NCBI GenBank assembly: GCA_903821875.1
Contig: CAIJMU010000059.1
Location: forward strand, 1-52,070
DNA: 52,070 bases
Direction: 5' to 3'
Source: an uncultured Spirochaetota bacterium
GTDB taxonomy: Bacteria; Spirochaetota; Spirochaetia; Treponematales; Rectinemataceae
Of the stretch, positions 1 through 16,386 are shown in pieces; the first letter of the stretch is position 1; each line of letters begins with the position of its first letter. Position numbers and translations under genes: made by a program. The notes below the pieces were generated by a model. The model did not search any database, was not told where the DNA came from, and worked only from the letters and a program-made list of their open reading frames with translations.

Positions 1-137
1 CCAGTCTAGGACGTTGCCAAATGGCTGAGTACTCGAAGCCATTTGGCAATGTGGGTGAGCCCGGCTCCGCTTGCCGGGCCGGGCGAATCCCCGAGGAGGG
101 AGCGCAGCGACCGACGAGCCTGGACTGGGTGTTAGGC
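1..137 (-). repeat. attC-like recombination site (partial at left edge)
   Basis: On the minus strand the site opens with the inverse core GCCTAAC (RYYYAAC consensus), then the L''-like arm CCCAGTCCAGG, and ends at the window edge with the L'-like arm CCTAGACTGG. These arms pair with one mismatch. The missing GTTRRRY core would fall just outside base 1. The middle holds two further hairpins: a 13-bp perfect stem TTGCCAAATGGCT/AGCCATTTGGCAA (15-50) and a GC-rich stem CCCGGC/GCCGGG (about 60-79). With the missing core the site would be about 144 bases, long for an attC. Confidence 0.7.
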
Positions 138-153
138 GCTGACCCCCAAATGC
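131..153 (+). repeat. left arm of 23-bp inverted repeat bounding the cassette
   Basis: This arm runs from the GTTAGGC core into cassette sequence ending in CCCCCAAATGC. It matches the reverse complement of 1186-1208 at 21 of 23 positions. The 7-bp core alone would be expected in both places; the extra 16 positions (14 matching) lie outside the canonical attC boxes. Confidence 0.75.
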
Positions 154-183
154 GATTTGGACTATAGGATATTTATCGTTATT

Positions 184-1086
184 TCATATCCACTCAATGC
201 GATACCCTTTGCTTTCTGCTATTGTCTTTACATTTCGCTGTAAATCTATCTCAGAATAGCACATGGTCTTTACACCAATTCCGCCTTCTTTTGCTAACTC
301 AACCCTATTACCATCTACAATATAGCAGTAGCCAATTTTCTTCATAAATGCTTCAATGCCATCAAGTCTTAGCTTAATGTCAACTGGTCCTATGACCTCA
401 GATATTTCTTGGCCATGATTTTTAGCAACTATATCGCTTTTCACTGAAGAAGAGTCAATATTATTATCCTTATCAACTCCAAGTGACTTTCCGCAGAAAC
501 GACAAAGTATTGCTTCGGCTTTGATGGTTTCCGCACAATATGGACAAGTTTTAGTATTTTCTACCGGGGCAGTATTTGCTTGGTCACTGCTTGAAGAGAG
601 GATATTTGAGCAGGATTTGCAAATAAATGCTTCTATCGGATTTACCGCCTTGCACTTGGAACATATTTTGGTGTTACGCACATCCAAGTTTGAAGAAGTG
701 TTTTGCTCTTCTGAATCAAACTTACCAAAACCAATGATCATAAGAGCGATTGCTGTACCGCCCCATACAAACCATCCCCATTCATATTGGAGCAGACTAC
801 TAGCGAGACTATTGCTTTTCATGTTTTCATTTATTCTGATTAAGTTGAAGATTACATCTCCAGCTACTGCTACACCCACCCATCCAAGCACTTTGAAGCT
901 TTTTACGAATGACCCATAGAGGCCGATCGCAGCCAAAACCAAAATCTCTATCAATAGCGTATTTCCTTGCTCTTGAAGCTTTATGGCATTAAAGCTTCCC
1001 AGAATAGGAATGCTAAATAATGGAAGGAACAAGACCACTGTCAACAGAACCGATAAAACCATACCAAATACCTGTCTCTGATTCAT
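184..1086 (-). CDS. cassette-encoded membrane protein with two zinc ribbons
   Basis: I do not recognise this 300-residue protein as a named family. The N-terminal half has about four hydrophobic segments (roughly residues 8-30, 44-60, 66-85 and 105-120). Then come two four-cysteine zinc-ribbon motifs: CSKC...CKSC (about 142-159) and CPYC...CRFC (about 181-198). The soluble C-terminal 100 residues carry no motif known to me. The start is supported by AAGGAGA 5 bases upstream of ATG. The gene is clearly more AT-rich than the rest of the window and is the only gene between the recombination core and the attC, as a gene cassette should be. A role in sensing or regulation at the membrane is a guess from the zinc ribbons only. 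Confidence 0.8.
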   Translation of the reverse strand: MNQRQVFGMVLSVLLTVVLFLPLFSIPILGSFNAIKLQEQGNTLLIEILVLAAIGLYGSFVKSFKVLGWVGVAVAGDVIFNLIRINENMKSNSLASSLLQYEWGWFVWGGTAIALMIIGFGKFDSEEQNTSSNLDVRNTKICSKCKAVNPIEAFICKSCSNILSSSSDQANTAPVENTKTCPYCAETIKAEAILCRFCGKSLGVDKDNNIDSSSVKSDIVAKNHGQEISEVIGPVDIKLRLDGIEAFMKKIGYCYIVDGNRVELAKEGGIGVKTMCYSEIDLQRNVKTIAESKGYRIEWI

Positions 1087-1185
1087 AATCTCTCCTTATC
1101 TTAAAATTGTGCTCTTAGGAATGAATACTTAGCATTTTATCCTTTTCACATAGAATGGAACAAGTACCGCGTAAATGCAATTTAG

Positions 1186-1208
1186 GCATTTGGGGGTTTG
1201 CGCCTAAC
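1186..1208 (-). repeat. right arm of cassette inverted repeat, containing the attI/cassette core GTTAGGC
   Basis: On the minus strand this reads GTTAGGC (1208-1202) followed by GCAAACCCCCAAATGC. In integrons strand exchange occurs between G and TT of the core, which here puts the cassette start at 1207. The complementary arm is at 131-153. In an excised circle the two arms would sit on either side of attC and lengthen its stem. Confidence 0.65.
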
Positions 1209-1427
1209 TCGAATTAGGTGATATCCCAAGTATTTTCTAGTCCTCCCATGAGAATTCGCGCAGTATAGTAATTTCAGGGACCTTAATAACCTCAGTCGTG
1301 TGCGATTTTGCTGAGCCTTTCATGACATGCAAAAGCGAAAGGTGCATTCCGAGTGAGCATCTCGCGAATTATGCGGCAGTATCATGTATAGGGCTAGCAG
1401 CTAAGGCCTTTGGGGTTTCGGTATCTG
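1209..1427. other. non-coding attI-like region between recombinase stop and cassette core
   Basis: There is no convincing gene in this 219-base stretch. By position it should hold attI and perhaps a promoter reading leftward into the cassette. A TATACT hexamer on the minus strand (about 1268-1273) could be a -10 element, but no good -35 accompanies it. I could not identify accessory integrase-binding repeats by eye. Confidence 0.35.
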
Positions 1428-2675
1428 CTACTCGGTGTCAAACGGACTGCGGATCTTAAGGACATCCCGCTTTGCAACATGGGTATAGACCTGGGTTGTC
1501 TTTGGGGACGCATGGCCAAGCAGGACCTGGATGAAGCGTAGGTCAGTACCATCTTCGAGAAGGTGCGTGGCGAAACTATGCCGGAGATTATGGATGGAGA
1601 CGCGTTTCCCTATTCCTGCCTCCTCGGCCGCCTTGTAAAAGACAGCCTGCAAGGTGCGAATCGCGAGGGCACTTCCATCAGGACCCTCAAAAAGCCATAT
1701 CCTCGGTCGTTCAAGATCGAGATAGTCAGCAAGCATCTTCTTCAATGCAACAGCCAGGATGGAATACCGGTCCTTGCGCCCCTTTCCTGAACGGACATGG
1801 ATTACTCCGCGAGCCGTATCGATGTCGCCCAGTTTCAAGCGGGATATCTCGCTGACCCGCAAGCCCGCGGAATACGCGATGGAAAGGATCAGACGATGCT
1901 TGAGATTCCTTGGAGACATGCAAATGCGCATGGCCTCCTCTTTTGAGAGTACCCCGGGCAGTTTCCGGTCAGCTCGGGGCCGCCGGGTTGATACTACGTC
2001 GCGGCCATAGACTGAGCTATAGAAGAATTTGATAGCGCTGATTGACTGGTTGAGGGTTGAAGCGGAAGCGCCACGTTTTCTTTCCATCATGGAGAGATAG
2101 CGAGTGATATCGGCATGTTGGGCTTGTTCGGCTGAAACGGAGATAAAAGCCGCGAAATCGGAGATGATTGCGATGTAGCGCTTTCGTGTTCGGGGAGAGT
2201 ACTTCCGGACAGCGAGGGCTTCCTCCATCCGCGATATCCAGCTTTCGCCTGGCAACGTTGCAAGGGGGCTGCCTGGAGCTGCCGCAGCGCAAGGAACCCC
2301 ATGCTTACCTGATCCCGGTGGGGCAAGGGGTGGGTGGGGAAGGCTTGATTCCTGACTCTTGGATTTTCCAGTCGGTTTCTCGGACTTGGAATATTCTGTG
2401 GCGCAAAATAGGCCTGTTTCAAATAGTGAGACCAAGAGGCTGTCCACGCTCCCCTGGTTATCTGGGATGGTCCAAGAATCAATGGCAGGGTCCCAACTGC
2501 TTCGGGGAACCTGTTCCAGCGCGCCAACTATTGCCGCGTTGAAAGGAAAGCTGATTGCCAGGAACTTGTTCCGATGCCCGCAGATCGAAAGCAGTGCAGT
2601 TGGCGTGCGGAGAGCGGACAGATCTGGCCCATCTACGAAGAGAGGCTCAAGGCCATTCGCCGTAGCAGACAACAT
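1428..2675 (-). CDS. tyrosine recombinase (integron-associated, XerC/D-like catalytic domain)
   Basis: This is a 415-residue site-specific recombinase. The catalytic set is complete in the C-terminal half: Arg in AGLRVSEIS, Lys in GKGRKDR, HNLRHSF, LGHASPKTT and the nucleophile Tyr in VYTHV. Before it is a core-binding SAM-like domain (YSPRTRKRYIAII...). The first ~90 residues contain W-DP...SW-IP, resembling the HARP-like segment in Bacteroidetes and spirochaete integrases (from memory). A proline-rich linker joins the parts. The extra block that IntI proteins carry between the second and third catalytic patches is absent. I chose ATG at 2675 because AAGGGAGG precedes it by 8 bases; the open frame begins further up at 2798 without a ribosome site. 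Ends in IRSPFD, a tail shared with IntI-like enzymes. Confidence 0.85.
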   Translation of the reverse strand: MLSATANGLEPLFVDGPDLSALRTPTALLSICGHRNKFLAISFPFNAAIVGALEQVPRSSWDPAIDSWTIPDNQGSVDSLLVSLFETGLFCATEYSKSEKPTGKSKSQESSLPHPPLAPPGSGKHGVPCAAAAPGSPLATLPGESWISRMEEALAVRKYSPRTRKRYIAIISDFAAFISVSAEQAQHADITRYLSMMERKRGASASTLNQSISAIKFFYSSVYGRDVVSTRRPRADRKLPGVLSKEEAMRICMSPRNLKHRLILSIAYSAGLRVSEISRLKLGDIDTARGVIHVRSGKGRKDRYSILAVALKKMLADYLDLERPRIWLFEGPDGSALAIRTLQAVFYKAAEEAGIGKRVSIHNLRHSFATHLLEDGTDLRFIQVLLGHASPKTTQVYTHVAKRDVLKIRSPFDTE

Positions 2676-3065
2676 TATGGCTGCCTCCCTTGGAAGCATC
2701 GAGGTACCGCTTTGTCCGCAGCAGGCCAAAGGCGCCACAGTGACGCTAGGAATCGAGGATTCTTTGACAGGCGCGCGACGGCCTCGGTCGAAACACAATG
2801 ACCATCAGGTTGCCTTACCCGATAATGATACTCGGAGCAGGCAGATTCTGCTTGTAGATAATCGTCTACATTGTTCTTTATCCATTTAGCAGCAGCGTGA
2901 ATGGGTGATATGGCATAAGAAATGCTGGATGATACTTGTTCTGGATTAGTCGATCCATATGGGCTTTTCCAGAGTTCCAGCAACGATCGTCTTTTGAAGC
3001 GCACAGGACCCCTCCTGCCCATTACTACGCATGGAGGGTGGGTCTATGCTTCTGTTTCCAGGGAG
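2676..3065. other. intergenic region upstream of the recombinase gene
   Basis: No supported gene lies here. It contains an 18-base palindrome, TGTAGA-TAATCG-TCTACA (2853-2870), about 180 bases upstream of the chosen recombinase start. It could be a regulator site or chance. A 115-codon open frame on the minus strand (2675-3022) lacks a ribosome site and recognisable content. Confidence 0.3.
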
Positions 3066-3095
3066 AAAAAAGCAGGAAACTTCAGTTCCTGTGCT
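3066..3095 (-). terminator. Rho-independent terminator of cheB
   Basis: On the minus strand the stem AGC-(bulge)-AGGAA/TTCCT-GCT overlaps the cheB stop codon and is followed directly by six T residues (3071-3066). The two-base bulge weakens the stem. Confidence 0.6.
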
Positions 3096-4203
3096 GCTTG
3101 GCCAAGGCCGAGATGGCTCCAGCCATTTCAGGAAGGGCTACCTGCTTCTGCACATGCCCGAGTTCGAAAGCTACCTTGGGCATGCCATAGACAACGCTCG
3201 AAGCTTCATCCTGGCCGAGGGTGTAACCGCCCTCCCTCATGATTGAACCCAGTTCCCGGGCTCCGTCACGGCCCATCCCCGTCATGATTACCCCAAGTGC
3301 CCTGTTTTGGTAGTGCTTCGCGACGCTCGCGAACAGCACATCGGCGCTGGGACGGTGGCCATTCTCGGGCGGAGCATCCGAAATCCGCACGATTGCGCCA
3401 AGCGGGCGCTTTTCCACCTCGATGTGGTGGTCTCCTGGAGCGATGAGGATGCGGCCGGGGCGGATGAGGTCGCCATCGGCAGCTTCCTTTACGTCGAGGG
3501 GGCAGAGGCGGTCGAGGCTCTTGGCAAACTCTTCGGTGAAACCGGGGGGCATGTGCTGGACGACGAGTATGGGCTGGGCGAGATCGGCGTCGATCCTGGC
3601 GAAGACATCGCGAAGTGCGTTCGGCCCTCCTGTGGAAATACCAATTGCGATGATCTCGATGGGACCGCCATTACGGACGGGCTTGGGCGCTTCCGGTTTG
3701 GACGCATGGAGCCGCTCGAGCTTCGGAAGGGGTTCGAACATGCGTTCAGGTGCCGCGAAGTCATAGTGGAGCGGGACCTTCCCCTTGCGTCTCTGGTACT
3801 GGAGCCCCCATGCAAGGAGGAGCCGTGCGAGGTCGCCGGCGACCGTGTGGATGTCAGAGGAAACTGAACCGGAGGGCTTTGTGATGAAATCGGCGGCTCC
3901 GAGGGAAAGGGCTTCCATGGTCACTTCGGCGCCTTTCTTGGCGACAGAAGACAGAATGATGACCGGAATGTCGATGCCGAGGCGGCGGCGCTCCTTGAGG
4001 AACTCGATGCCATTCATCCCTGGCATCTCGATATCAAGGACGATGACGTCCGGGTTGCAGCGTGGGATCTTCTGGAGGGCGAAGATGCCGTTCATCGCCT
4101 TGTCGGCGACCGCAAGGCCGGGAGTAGTTTCTACGATCTTCGAGACAAGGTTCCGCATGAGGGCTGAATCGTCGACAACGAGGACCGAGACTGGATCGGA
4201 CAC
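3082..4203 (-). CDS. cheB: chemotaxis response regulator protein-glutamate methylesterase CheB
   Basis: CheB removes methyl groups (and deamidates glutamines) on chemoreceptors, resetting their sensitivity in the cytoplasm. The 373-residue protein has an N-terminal receiver domain with Asp11/Asp12 and phospho-acceptor Asp57 (VLDIEMPG), then a linker and the esterase domain from about residue 180. Catalytic residues are visible: Ser in GISTGGP, His in VVQHMPPG and Asp in GMGRDGA. Length is normal for the family. It lies 15 bases after cheR, its functional opposite, and the two form an operon. The other che genes are not in this window. The stop overlaps a terminator. Confidence 0.95.
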   Translation of the reverse strand: MSDPVSVLVVDDSALMRNLVSKIVETTPGLAVADKAMNGIFALQKIPRCNPDVIVLDIEMPGMNGIEFLKERRRLGIDIPVIILSSVAKKGAEVTMEALSLGAADFITKPSGSVSSDIHTVAGDLARLLLAWGLQYQRRKGKVPLHYDFAAPERMFEPLPKLERLHASKPEAPKPVRNGGPIEIIAIGISTGGPNALRDVFARIDADLAQPILVVQHMPPGFTEEFAKSLDRLCPLDVKEAADGDLIRPGRILIAPGDHHIEVEKRPLGAIVRISDAPPENGHRPSADVLFASVAKHYQNRALGVIMTGMGRDGARELGSIMREGGYTLGQDEASSVVYGMPKVAFELGHVQKQVALPEMAGAISALAKQHRN

Positions 4204-4218
4204 AAAAAGCTCCTCTGC

Positions 4219-5022
4219 TTATTTCTTGTAGAAACATGCCCAGTCGGTTTTCACGAATTCAAACTTCGTGTTCATTCCGAACAGGGACTCCGAGTGGCCG
4301 ATAAAGAGGTAGCCATGGCTGGCTATCGCATCCCAGAAGCGTCCCACCGCGGCCTTCTGTGCCGCTTCGTCGAAGTAGATCAGGACATTCCTGCAAAACA
4401 CTACATCGAGGTTGCGGAGGCCCAGGTCATTCTTGAGATTGTGGTAGTCAAAACGAACCAGTTTCTTGATCTCGTCGCGGACAGAATAGCCACCGGGCTT
4501 CTTCTCGAAGTACTTGGTGAGATAGTGCTCCGGGATGCCCTGGATGCGGCTGTCGGAATAGAAGCCTTCCTTGCCGACCATGAGGGACTTGAGGCTGATA
4601 TCGGAGGCTACAATCTCGAAGCTCCAGCCAGCAGGGAGGATTTCCTTGAGCAGCATCGCGATTGTGTAGGGTTCCTCGCCGGTGGAGCAACCGGCGCTCC
4701 AGAACTTGAGCTTCTTGTCGTATCCCTTTGCCTTGATGAGGGCTGGAACGACGAATTTCTCTATGGCATCGAAGTGCGCCTGGTTGCGGAAAAAGCGGGT
4801 CAGGTTAGTGGTAACCGAATCTAGGAAGGTCTTGAGCTCTTCCTTGTCGCTGGTGATGACCTGGAAGTATTCCCGGAGACTGGCAAGCTTCTTTTCACGA
4901 AGACGTTCCTTGAGCCTGCTTTCGAGGATGGAGCGGTTCGTCGTCGAGAAATGGATGCCGCTTTCATCATAGACGAGCTTTCGATACAGCTCGAAATCGG
5001 CATCCGAGAGAAACTCCGACAT
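4219..5022 (-). CDS. cheR: chemotaxis protein-glutamate O-methyltransferase CheR
   Basis: CheR transfers a methyl group from S-adenosylmethionine to receptor glutamates. The 267-residue protein has the usual N-terminal all-alpha domain (about residues 1-75, ending with the TRFFRN motif), then the Rossmann-like methyltransferase domain with WSAGCSTGEEPYT, the SAM-binding loop. CRNVLIYFD and the end FIGHSESLFG are also typical. Length and order are canonical. A G-rich ribosome site (GGCAGGGGGC) precedes the ATG. It is the first gene of the cheR-cheB pair; the promoter must lie in 5023-5150, shared with the divergent nuclease gene. Confidence 0.95.
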   Translation of the reverse strand: MSEFLSDADFELYRKLVYDESGIHFSTTNRSILESRLKERLREKKLASLREYFQVITSDKEELKTFLDSVTTNLTRFFRNQAHFDAIEKFVVPALIKAKGYDKKLKFWSAGCSTGEEPYTIAMLLKEILPAGWSFEIVASDISLKSLMVGKEGFYSDSRIQGIPEHYLTKYFEKKPGGYSVRDEIKKLVRFDYHNLKNDLGLRNLDVVFCRNVLIYFDEAAQKAAVGRFWDAIASHGYLFIGHSESLFGMNTKFEFVKTDWACFYKK

Positions 5023-5150
5023 CCTGCCCCCTGCCTCGCCTGACGCTGCCCGGGGATTCCGAGAAAGGAACAGCCTCTCCTCGCGGCCCCGATCGTGCCG
5101 ATATGCTCAAAAAAGTGTAGGGCCACCCTTTGGGGGTGTCAATAGCGGCC

Positions 5151-5597
5151 ATGGACGATGAAAACGGGCAGGGCGAGGGCTATCTTCGAATGATGGATAC
5201 GGACTTCGTGACTATGTCGATACGCGGCGTGTCGGTGGGAGATGGCACTGCATTGCCTGTCGTGACCCTGAGGGAAGTAGCCGAGTCGGGCAGATTCATG
5301 TCGCTGCAGGTTGGCCCCTTCGAGGCAAGTGCCATCATACTCGAGCTCGAGGGCATCGAGCCGGCCAGGCCGCTCACGCATGACCTGCTCGCGGCTGTCT
5401 TCAAGGAAGGCGGCCTCGCCCTGCTGCGTGCAGAGCTTTTTGGCAGCACCGGCGAAGGGCCGCGTGCGCGCCTGGTCTATCGAAGGGGTCTTGGCCACCG
5501 GGTGCGGGAAGTGCGTCCCTCCGATGCGCTGGCCCTGGCGCTCAGACTCAAGGCTCCGATTCGAGCCTCGCGCGGGCTCCTGGCGGGCATTTCCTGA
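5151..5597 (+). CDS. bifunctional nuclease domain (DUF151) protein
   Basis: This 148-residue protein matches the BFN/DUF151 pattern: a strand with LPVVTLREV, then an EASAIILELEG helix, RPLTHDLLAAV, a strand pair and RPSDALALALRLKAPI near the end. Proteins of this family have been reported with RNase and DNase activity (plant BFN1/2), and the domain is widespread in bacteria with unclear roles. The frame is open from TTG at 5130, but ATG at 5151 is the better start; the G-rich stretch upstream is rather far (about 14 bases), so the start is uncertain. It is divergent from cheR and about 46 bases upstream of the next gene, probably co-transcribed with it. Confidence 0.8.
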   Translation: MDDENGQGEGYLRMMDTDFVTMSIRGVSVGDGTALPVVTLREVAESGRFMSLQVGPFEASAIILELEGIEPARPLTHDLLAAVFKEGGLALLRAELFGSTGEGPRARLVYRRGLGHRVREVRPSDALALALRLKAPIRASRGLLAGIS

Positions 5598-5643
5598 GCC
5601 AGGTTGGGGATCTGCCCTTTCTCATACGGGAAGTGGACCCGAC

Positions 5644-7329
5644 ATGCTCCACATGACCTTCCTGGAGCTGGTCCGCAGCCTTATTGAGCGCGTGTTCGGC
5701 GGCGATCCGGGAAAGCTCCGGAAGCGTGCGGAACTGCGAAAACTCTACGCCATCCTCGATAGGCAGCCCCTTCCCTACTACCGGCCCAAACAGAACCAGG
5801 TCCTGCCCGGCTTCGCAGAAACGCTGTTTGCCTGGGCGCGAACGATGCGTCCCCTCCACGACCTGGTCCTTGCTACGGTCGCCCACACGGACTCGCGGGT
5901 CGCACAGAAGCACATCGATTTCCTGATAGAGTGCAGGATTCCGGCAGGGGATCCCGATCGGGTTTATTCTTTTAATTATGAGACTATTTGCGACAGCCTG
6001 CTCAATTCCCTCGATCCAGAAAAGGACATAGATGCGCTGGAAGCCAAATTCAGGGATTTCATCGCAGGGATCGACCAACTCGGGGGCCGCCAGGTCAACG
6101 AGGACCTGGACTTGGTGGAACGCTTTGTCGACATTGTCCGCTTCGACTGCGGGCGTTTCCTGGCGATGTTCGATCCCGCCGTTTCCTTCGACAGCCGCAG
6201 CCGCCACCCTGGATTTTCCCCCCTCGATGCGGACCAAGCGCTCCCCGAGTTGCTGGACCTGCACTACGTGCTCAAGGATTTTGTGTTCGAGCCAACCTTG
6301 CGCGACGATCTCACGAGGCTCTTTGCGCACCACTCAAAGACCGGCCTCGACGAGACGAAGCTGAAGAAGCTGACGAAAATCTTTGAGCAGCTCGATTCTG
6401 CGCTCTCGGGTCCGCTTTCCCCCACGGTCATACTCACGCTGATCCGCGCCTTGAAATCCGATCCCGAATGCGAGCTGACGGCGCCGAGGGAGCGCAAGGA
6501 CCACCTCGCGGCCTATAGACACCGGGTGGTTTCCCAATTCGAAAAGGACATCGCGCGGGTCCGCCACGAACGACAGGAAAGCACGGTCATGGCCGATCTT
6601 GCGAAGCTCTTCCTGGGCATCGAGTTCATGACGGTCGATGGATACGACGAGGAGACGGATTCCTACCTCAGGAAGGAGACACCCAACGGCCTGCTCTGGA
6701 TCAAGCCGTTCCGGGCGCTAAGGACCTTCATAGTACACATATTTGAACCGGCAATCTTCGAGCCCGTCACGAAGCTGCTGCTCGAGGGCAATTTCGATAA
6801 CAAGGAATTCCAGAACAATGTCGCGAACATACTGTACCAATGCGAAAAATCATCGCAGAAGGTCAGTGCGTTCGAAGTGCAGATCAGCGGCAGCGGCCGT
6901 TACTCGATGACGGCGATCCGCCGCTACGTGGAGGAGATGAAGAAGGGCAAGGACCTCGCGCCCTTCCTCGCACGACTCATCGATTCGGTGAACGAGATCG
7001 CCTTCGACCTGATCCGCAACGAAACGGAGATCCTGGCGATGCTCGGCCATGCGCTCGCCGAGGTCACCGCCGACTCCAGTCACACTTCGACGGCAGTCGT
7101 TCCCAACCTGCGGAAAATCGGAGGCGGACGCAACCGGCAATTCCTCGCACAGTTGAATTCCGCCCAGGAAAGCTTCACACTTTTCACGCGGATAATGCGG
7201 AGCTTCGGGATACTGGCTGCGAGAGACAACACTGTCGCGGTGAGCACCGATCCTGAAGCTGTTCCGGTACTGGACGTAGCCGAGATCGAAGCGGAACCTC
7301 CCCGCTCCGGCCATCTTCTGGAAAACTGA
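5644..7329 (+). CDS. spirochaete-type conserved protein (DUF5312-like)
   Basis: This 561-residue, mostly helical protein has no signal peptide or clear membrane segment. Its content (FLELVRSLIERVFG at the start, then a long helical body with repeated charged heptads) fits a family I know only from spirochaetes, annotated as DUF5312. That assignment is from memory of sequence style and was not checked. No catalytic motif is visible. ATG at 5644 has GGGAAGTGG about 8 bases upstream; the longer open frame from 5311 overlaps the nuclease gene and is not needed. It converges with the next gene, leaving 7 bases between stops. Confidence 0.65.
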   Translation: MLHMTFLELVRSLIERVFGGDPGKLRKRAELRKLYAILDRQPLPYYRPKQNQVLPGFAETLFAWARTMRPLHDLVLATVAHTDSRVAQKHIDFLIECRIPAGDPDRVYSFNYETICDSLLNSLDPEKDIDALEAKFRDFIAGIDQLGGRQVNEDLDLVERFVDIVRFDCGRFLAMFDPAVSFDSRSRHPGFSPLDADQALPELLDLHYVLKDFVFEPTLRDDLTRLFAHHSKTGLDETKLKKLTKIFEQLDSALSGPLSPTVILTLIRALKSDPECELTAPRERKDHLAAYRHRVVSQFEKDIARVRHERQESTVMADLAKLFLGIEFMTVDGYDEETDSYLRKETPNGLLWIKPFRALRTFIVHIFEPAIFEPVTKLLLEGNFDNKEFQNNVANILYQCEKSSQKVSAFEVQISGSGRYSMTAIRRYVEEMKKGKDLAPFLARLIDSVNEIAFDLIRNETEILAMLGHALAEVTADSSHTSTAVVPNLRKIGGGRNRQFLAQLNSAQESFTLFTRIMRSFGILAARDNTVAVSTDPEAVPVLDVAEIEAEPPRSGHLLEN

Positions 7330-7336
7330 CAGGCGT

Positions 7337-8131
7337 TTACTGGGCCTTCGGAAAACCCTTCTCGAACCAGGAGAAAAAGGCAGCTGCCCGATTCGAGAAT
7401 GAGTCTTCGAGCCTTCCGGAGAGTATGGGTATCCTCGCCACGGTTGCAGCGCTTGCCACATAGAAGACGATTCCCTCGTCGGCAGGTATCACGAGGATGC
7501 GCGTCCGAAGGCTGCCGGCGCCCAGCATGGGGATCAGGCCATAGGACATCGGAGTGAGGTTGGTCTGTGTAACCATGATCGATCCGTCCTCACGAAAATC
7601 ATACTCGTAACTATACACATTGGAGCCAAAGCTGAGGTCTCGCTGGAAGGCGAGGAAGGCGAACCCTGGCTGCTGTCCATCGGGCCTGAGGTCGGGAAGG
7701 CGTATGCGGTTTTCAAGGCTGTCGACTCGATACGACTCGGCGAAGAAGGTCCGCCAGCGCTTCCGGCTGGCCGACCAATACTGGATCCCCTCGAGAGTCG
7801 AGATCGAGGTGATCTGGCGCAGGAGGGAAGCCCTCTCCCTCGCCGGGTCGGAAGCCTGAGGACGGGCGAGTACGAAAACAGCCTCGACGCGCAGGCCGGG
7901 CTTCTCGGCCTCGAGGGCTAGCTTTATCGGCGCGAAGCCTGGCTGGCTGAGCCAGCCAGCCCCTGCAAGAGCGGTCTGCCCCGAGCTTATGGCTGTAACG
8001 CGTCCCTCGGCTCGAACCTGGGCGAGTACCCCTGCTTCGAGCAAGGAAGAAAGGCGGGGATACGGGGCTGCCGCAAGCGTCAGGCTGATGGCGAAAAAAC
8101 TGGCAGCCATGAAGGCAGGTCGCTTCAACAT
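7337..8131 (-). CDS. exported protein of unknown function (spirochaetal, DUF6675-like)
   Basis: The 264-residue product begins with a typical Sec signal peptide (MLKRPAFMAASFFAISLTLAAA, cleavage near residue 22), so it is probably periplasmic or outer-membrane associated. The body is rich in beta-strand patterns and contains SNVYSYEYDFREDG and QTNLTPMSYGLIPML. It resembles treponemal hypothetical proteins grouped as DUF6675, an assignment from memory and uncertain. No cysteine lipobox is seen. There is no clear ribosome site before ATG 8131; the second ATG at 8110 is possible but would shorten the signal peptide. It stands alone, convergent with its left neighbour and divergent from the cyclase gene. 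Confidence 0.6.
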   Translation of the reverse strand: MLKRPAFMAASFFAISLTLAAAPYPRLSSLLEAGVLAQVRAEGRVTAISSGQTALAGAGWLSQPGFAPIKLALEAEKPGLRVEAVFVLARPQASDPARERASLLRQITSISTLEGIQYWSASRKRWRTFFAESYRVDSLENRIRLPDLRPDGQQPGFAFLAFQRDLSFGSNVYSYEYDFREDGSIMVTQTNLTPMSYGLIPMLGAGSLRTRILVIPADEGIVFYVASAATVARIPILSGRLEDSFSNRAAAFFSWFEKGFPKAQ

Positions 8132-16091: not shown

Positions 16092-16354
16092 TCCTCCTCG
16101 AAGCGAGTGGCGAAAAGGTGCTCTATCGATGCAACCGCCTGCTTCTCGTCGGCCCCATCGGCGATGATGCGGATCTGGGTGCCAAAGCTCGCACCGAGAG
16201 TCATGACACCCATGATCGACTTGGCGTTGATCTTGTCGTTGGCCTTGCCGAGCCAGATCTTGCTCGTGAACTTGCTCGCTGTCTGGACGATGAGCGCCGA
16301 GGGACGGGCGTGGATGCCGGCCCTGTTACCGATCGTCACAATTACCTCGGTCAT
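16088..16354 (-). CDS. ptsH: phosphocarrier protein HPr
   Basis: This is an 88-residue HPr with the enzyme-I phosphorylation site His15 (NRAGIHARPSA) and the regulatory Ser46 (NAKSIMGVM), the target of the HPr kinase encoded just upstream. ATG 16354 is preceded by GGAG at 6 bases; the longer open frame to 16444 would overlap hprK and has no support. No enzyme I or enzyme II gene is near. With hprK, rpoN and the NtrY/X pair in the same operon, HPr probably acts here mainly in regulation rather than sugar uptake, an inference from context shared with other treponemes. Confidence 0.95.
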   Translation of the reverse strand: MTEVIVTIGNRAGIHARPSALIVQTASKFTSKIWLGKANDKINAKSIMGVMTLGASFGTQIRIIADGADEKQAVASIEHLFATRFEED

Positions 16355-16386
16355 CGTCACTCCATTCGCTTTCTGGGGAAAGGTTG

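Follow-up and report, generated by a model that had tools for sequence, protein, structure and literature searches.

The window (the whole stretch of 52,070 nucleotides analysed here) is contig C59 of an uncultured spirochaete whose genome assembly comprises 193 contigs, and its first 1,208 bp raise a question: why do the two ends of a single gene cassette pair far beyond the 7-bp cores of their R boxes? The original prediction had reported 21 pairs in 23 positions between 131-153 and 1186-1208, and among the inverted repeats of window positions 1-8000 these 23-nt arms, with 91% complementarity, ranked first. When the first 8 kb were shuffled 20 times to first order, no shuffle contained an inverted repeat matching at 21/23 or better with 150-1500 bp between its arms. 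Counting from the G of GTT, as for all positions below, the two mispaired positions were 10 (140/1199) and 11 (141/1198), and the 7-bp cores GTTAGGC/GCCTAAC occupied 131-137 and 1202-1208. The array lies on the minus strand, so that 1186-1208 is the start of the cassette and 131-153 its end, upstream of R''. Read along the minus strand, the order is recombinase, attI-like core, start arm, zinc-ribbon gene, end arm and attC:

1428..2798, minus strand: tyrosine recombinase, IntI/XerA-like, with no I2 insertion and a long N-terminal extension (PF00589, PF13495; the TTG start is uncertain)
1202..1220, minus strand: attI-like core CACCTAA - TTCGA - GTTAGGC, read from the sequence; adjacent to the recombinase and resembling the attI-side start of array L044
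1186..1208, minus strand: cassette start arm (S), with R box, positions 8-10, A at position 11 (window 1198) and outer arm (inverted repeat; strict end-pair scan)
184..1086, minus strand: cassette gene (ORF), 300 aa, predicted zinc-ribbon protein (weak, sub-cut-off matches to PF12773 and PF13248)
131..153, minus strand: cassette end arm (E), including R'' GCCTAAC (137-131); the partner of position 11 is window 141 (inverted repeat; strict end-pair scan)
1..137, minus strand: attC, R'' to L', palindromic, with L''/L' CCCAGTCCAGG/CCTAGACTGG; R' lies past the contig end (sequence, similar copies elsewhere in the genome, fold)

Crossover at the attI-like core would be expected between G1208 and T1207; the core itself is a candidate attI by its position and resemblance. 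Window position 1 is the end of contig C59, where attC lacks R' and perhaps a few preceding bases, so the whole site of roughly 180 bases foreseen in the original prediction is not visible. The contig ends within this attC and the window held no second cassette. Upstream of the recombinase, CheB (with a receiver domain) and CheR genes at 3082-5022 (minus strand) place the array beside a chemotaxis locus.

The recombinase, which had been called unusual, proved to be an enzyme without the IntI-specific domain. It matched Phage_integrase (PF00589) and a SAM-like domain (PF13495) and scored under the cut-off of NF040815 (XerA/integron integrase) as well as that of TIGR02249 (integron integrase); its alignment to TIGR02249 came in two pieces that skipped positions 181-239, the IntI-specific insertion region. 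The spacing from KGxKxR to HxLRH was 65 residues in the window enzyme and 64-70 in all 34 I2-less proteins measured; in IntI1 and in 15 IntI proteins from the same order it was 107, making the distribution bimodal. The IntI-specific (I2) domain of about 42 residues, the unique additional domain by which the IntI of an integron is defined, was thus absent from the window enzyme and from the enzymes adjoining the arrays with cassette-private arms described below. The closest solved structures included XerA (5hxy) and a XerC-like protein (4a8e), beside IntI4 (2a3v). The genome's own Xer-like pair is separate, on C126, and grouped apart from the window enzyme in the tree; housekeeping Xer/dif recombinases have no cassette array, whereas the window enzyme adjoins a cassette. 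None of nine genomes (the window's own and eight relatives with arrays or array fragments) carried a gene above the TIGR02249 cut-off. The proposal that the neighbouring I2-less enzyme acts on the arm-bearing sites rests on this adjacency and on there being no other integron integrase. Relatives scoring E <= 1e-60 against the I2-less profile were present in 42 of the 194 genomes of the order, the lowest scorers among them being maybe other Xer-like proteins, and also in Bacteroidota, Bacillota and candidate phyla among the matches listed (the best 80 were kept). The N-terminal extension of the window enzyme (2230-2798, minus strand) contains an FPxNxx...W..xxxxW.xP-like motif, which is also present in the I2-containing IntI proteins of the same order (L211-L230; matches from about query residue 67).

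Since the window offers one cassette only, the arms were examined in arrays that lie next to the enzymes most closely related to its recombinase. The attC sites were detected by AAC...GTT boxes, an inner stem and likeness to sister sites, leaving the outer arms unused, and the start of each cassette was then compared with the reverse complement of its end. Arrays of attC sites with AAC/GTT boxes and inner stems were present in L042, L044, L046, L049, L330 and L271. Two apparently mis-called cassettes, L050:10996 (score 2) and L049:9034 (score 4), were dropped from the position table, the folds and the position-11, bulge and arm-pairing counts, and retained in the mean scores of 27 cassettes. 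Complementarity past the 7-bp cores, which the original prediction had proposed to look for in other cassettes, was present: leaving L044 aside, 19 of 20 spirochaete cassettes with private arms paired at 6-7 of the 7 positions from 12 to 18 (7/7 in 17 of them), the lone weak one, in L335, pairing at 4/7. Identity between a cassette's own ends (20 cassettes; 25 with L044) was 80-100% at positions 1-10, 5% at position 11, 90-100% at positions 12-18 and 55-65% at positions 19-21, and fell to about background thereafter. In outline, 10 paired positions are followed by the fixed A/G step of position 11 and then usually by 7-10 more pairs.

This pairing belonged to single cassettes. Different cassettes of one array showed 26-57% identity at positions 12-18, and 19 distinct arm sequences were counted in the 25 spirochaete cassettes. 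The mean pairing score was 10.6 over 27 cassettes and 9.9 over the 22 outside L044, compared with 4.7 for cross-cassette pairs, and none of 10,000 permutations of ends among cassettes (L044 set aside because its arms are shared) reached the observed total. Across one and the same attC of an array, the adjoining end arm and start arm matched at 1-6 of 7 positions from 12 to 18 (13 pairs). Because a cassette's own ends match and its neighbours across attC do not, the long stem is a property of the excised circle and not of the array, which agrees with the earlier expectation that the arms would flank attC in the circle. The arm match was cassette-private in five of the six main spirochaete arrays; the exception, L044 (genome G048), has one arm pair common to all its cassettes and hence the long stem in the array too. 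GC-rich hairpins, perhaps terminators or further folding elements, were also seen just inside both cassette ends, beyond the arms, e.g., around CCATCCnTGG (L044:10564-10589 and each repeat); similar ones occur in L042 near each cassette start and end and at L009:15752-15770.

Cassettes next to an I2-containing IntI of the same order served as controls, from arrays detected in 5 of 20 fetched loci. In these 27 cassettes, identity between own ends was 78% at position 8, 37% at position 9 and then approximately at the between-cassette level, with 0-4 of 7 matches at positions 12-18, i.e., no outer arm. The same attC detector found in the class 1 control only two cassettes, with own scores of 5 and 5, too few to rest on. 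It is very improbable that the arms are simply the slight extension of the R boxes found in all cassettes. That self-pairing can reach past the 7-nt boxes to a total of 9-11 consecutive nucleotides is indeed reported in the available text of PMC2727003, but in the spirochaete arrays pairing restarted after position 11 for about 7-10 positions, and the 27 control cassettes of the same order had dropped to about the between-cassette level by positions 9-12.

The end pairs were also sought by a strict scan that ignores attC and that replaced a loose version (outer score of at least 9), unusable for its many chance matches. Of 51 I2-less spirochaete loci, 22 contained pairs, 45 in all, where shuffles gave 1.2; part of these 51 loci had been chosen for holding attC-like DNA, and the 45 include likely accidental pairs (one in L273 and three of four in L337). 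Loci with I2-containing enzymes gave 3 pairs in 1 of 20 (L218, one dispersed repeat) and class 1 loci none in 8. In other phyla there were 33 pairs in 18 of 80 loci against 2.0 in shuffles, some of them accidental and including nested palindromes (L103) and an unrelated large repeat (L114); clear pairs outside the spirochaetes were those of L100 (Bacillota, four) and L064 (Saccharibacillus, three). The four loci of the window's own genome yielded the window pair and one in L007 that looks accidental (A/T at position 11), with 0.2 expected.

Copies resembling the window attC elsewhere in the genome, on C119, C44 and C114, are scattered and mostly truncated. The single copies at L007:10335-10471, L008:15510-15576 and 16290-16383, and L009:16381-16474 each follow one or two small genes, away from arrays; several of these genes look toxin-antitoxin-like by eye. 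Note that the contigs of L040, L041 and L048 end 261, 768 and 481 bp past the recombinase match, as the window contig ends inside attC; assembly breaks in repeats may hide I2-less arrays.

Bacteroidota arrays had shorter arms: identity was 95-100% through position 9, broke at position 11, was 53-86% at positions 12-15 and then vanished (43 cassettes of 10 loci). Just past the arm in loci L054-L105, position 16 of start and end matched in none of the 43, the starts being A-rich and the ends T-rich, as though pairing were avoided. The step at position 11 had the same direction in both groups. With orientation taken from the inner stem, A at the start was combined with G in the reverse complement of the end in 18 of 25 cassettes from spirochaetes and in 30 of 41 from Bacteroidota (9 loci, L103 being omitted for its nested palindromes); the opposite arrangement, G/A, occurred in 0/25 and 0/41. 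The window cassette, with A at its start and G at its end, fits the rule. On the bottom strand an A/G step leaves a T.G wobble; on the top strand it leaves an A.C mismatch.

These regularities bear on whether the arms might be a functionless relic of cassette birth, for instance if template switching had generated one end from the other. The private arms do resemble copies in their perfect runs (7/7 in 17 of 20). Neutral copies would be expected neither to share a fixed, one-directional A/G break at position 11 nor to have a length characteristic of each lineage (about 18-21 positions in spirochaetes and 15 in Bacteroidota), and I2-containing arrays of the same order have no arm; we consider this origin improbable.

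The inner part of the sites differed as well. A canonical-like extrahelical pair, scored as two single-base bulges 5-8 nt apart in one arm, was found in 23 of 32 I2-containing sites but in none of the 28 I2-less sites from spirochaetes and in 1 of the 52 from Bacteroidota (the truncated window attC stood outside this scoring). Of the 28 spirochaete sites, 10 had one bulged base, in most cases A or T next to the spacer. Extrahelical bases, which count among the defining features of an integron attC, were thus lacking as a pair in the I2-less sites of the relatives: the absence of I2 goes with that of the bases which, according to the available text of PMC7790495, I2 docks. At the level of sequence, then, the long stem accompanied the absence of both the IntI-specific domain and the extrahelical pair.

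The circle junction, which the original prediction had proposed to fold as single-stranded DNA, was more stable than the alternatives. The mean fold of the bottom strand was -56.4 kcal/mol for the circle junction, -46.6 for the array junction and -42.0 for a site with only the 7-bp core, a mean gain of 9.8 kcal/mol of circle over array; the circle fold was the better one in 21 of 25 cases, the remaining four all being from L044. The bottom strand folded better than the top in 24 of 25 circle junctions. Since the array junctions also showed top-bottom differences (23 of 25), there is asymmetry beyond position 11. The window junction, folded as 182 nt without the missing R'-proximal bases, gave -66.4 on the bottom and -61.1 on the top strand.

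The ends could instead pair across the gene before excision, either in a loop of single-stranded DNA that draws the cut sites close to one another for excision or in a transcript, where pairing would shape the mRNA. The arms are complementary within a cassette whatever its state, both travel with it, and such pairing would be available both in the array and in RNA. It would, however, have to bridge about 0.4-2.2 kb of gene, a costly loop; a role in RNA needs neither arms that start exactly at the crossover nor a step at position 11 directed to one DNA strand, and RNA with the top-strand sequence would be mispaired at position 11. We hold pairing across the gene to be unlikely.

One cassette of this kind has evidently moved. 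In G041, a single-contig genome with two arrays about 25 kb apart, L049:11382-12806 and L330:16458-17882 are the same 1,425-bp cassette, 99.8% identical, with different neighbours. On the right side identity runs to GTTATG and then ends, and the left flanking attC sites differ; the mobile unit is therefore both arms plus the cassette's own attC, with boundaries at G/TT. Movement as G/TT-bounded units, a further mark of integron cassettes, was seen in G041 only, and there the twin cassettes are natural evidence for cassette movement without an I2-containing integrase in the genome. They also speak against arms that are the terminal inverted repeats of a transposon or MITE inserted beside attC. 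A gene between 23-bp inverted repeats does look like a small transposable element, yet the arms start at the G/TT crossover of the R boxes, no transposase match was obtained for the cassette gene, and the unit moved in G041 takes in the whole attC outside the arms; this origin is scarcely credible.

We lean towards the reading that the 23-bp repeat represents the ends of one cassette of an I2-less integron-like array, whose stem serves as a landing arm and as a strand mark replacing the reading by I2. The pairing of the ends themselves is supported by sequence; from it we infer a grip, a choice of strand and a bias towards insertion, as follows. The bottom strand of the excised cassette circle would fold, and the outer arm would extend the double-stranded R arm to about 18-21 bp, which is about the footprint of one Xer-type protomer. 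The I2-less enzyme could then bind the hairpin as though it were duplex DNA. The strand would be marked by the uneven spacer and by position 11, where the bottom strand has T.G and the top A.C; in IntI systems extrahelical bases do this. Since integration at attI would destroy the outer arm, insertion should be favoured relative to re-excision. In L044, where the arms are common to all cassettes, the stem is also present in the array and no such bias would follow; the Bacteroidota arms, ending by position 15, are a poor fit to a single fixed footprint.

How the I2-less enzymes relate to IntI was examined in a tree of 52 rows rooted on the two Xer proteins of the window's own genome. The I2-containing IntI proteins formed one clade (100/99) within the I2-less set, and the I2-less enzymes did not form a single clade; the two root rows were long-branched and sampling was thin, so that an ancestral position of the I2-less enzymes is a hypothesis and no result. 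It is conceivable, if somewhat short of an even chance, that these arrays represent stem-group integrons, in a lineage spread widely over spirochaetes, Bacteroidota, Bacillota and candidate phyla and marked by the private arm and the asymmetry at position 11, within which IntI arose and lost the arm. If this is true, cassettes can be captured through folded sites without an I2 helix or extrahelical bases.

According to the available text of PMC7790495, only integron integrases have I2 and recombine single strands, removal of I2 abolishes function and the ancestral route is not determinable; the available text of PMC3607928 (2013) describes termite-gut treponemes as lacking integrons. Among the open-access papers listed by our searches (subscription literature lay outside them) we recognised no report of I2-less recombinases serving cassette arrays or of cassette-private outer arms; relative to the 9-11 nt of pairing reported, these arrays differ in that pairing restarts past position 11. 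Search tools that require the IntI domain probably list I2-less arrays as integrase-less clusters. A natural family of cassette arrays without I2 or the extrahelical pair would make the transition from Xer to integron testable in living enzymes, and the arrays possibly embody a different, perhaps older way of carrying out the integron reaction.

Among known systems, the chromosomal integrons of the Treponema group share with the arrays described here a recombinase gene with an array of small cassettes at its 3' side, AAC/GTT boxes, a palindromic attC and a long N-terminal extension of the enzyme; the reverse orientation is given as typical of Spirochaetota in the available text of PMC9668308. 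Their IntI differs in having the insertion (spacing 107), their sites mostly have the extrahelical pair (23/32) and their pairing stops at about position 8. Class 1 and Vibrio integrons have the same TT-to-G cassette unit, the same R''/L''/L'/R' plan and a bottom strand that is more stable when folded, but they rely on the I2 helix and on extrahelical bases to dock the site and choose the strand (available text of PMC7790495 and PMC2727003), and the pairing reported for them reaches only 9-11 consecutive nt (our own sample being two class 1 cassettes). XerA and XerC-XerD at dif also lack the I2 insertion, and XerA (5hxy) and the XerC-like 4a8e are among the structures closest to the window enzyme, but they are housekeeping enzymes without cassette arrays. 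CTX phage integration via XerCD, as presented in the available text of PMC7790495, likewise has an I2-less recombinase acting on folded single-stranded DNA; there, however, a phage genome borrows the host XerCD at dif, whereas the arrays described here adjoin a recombinase of their own.
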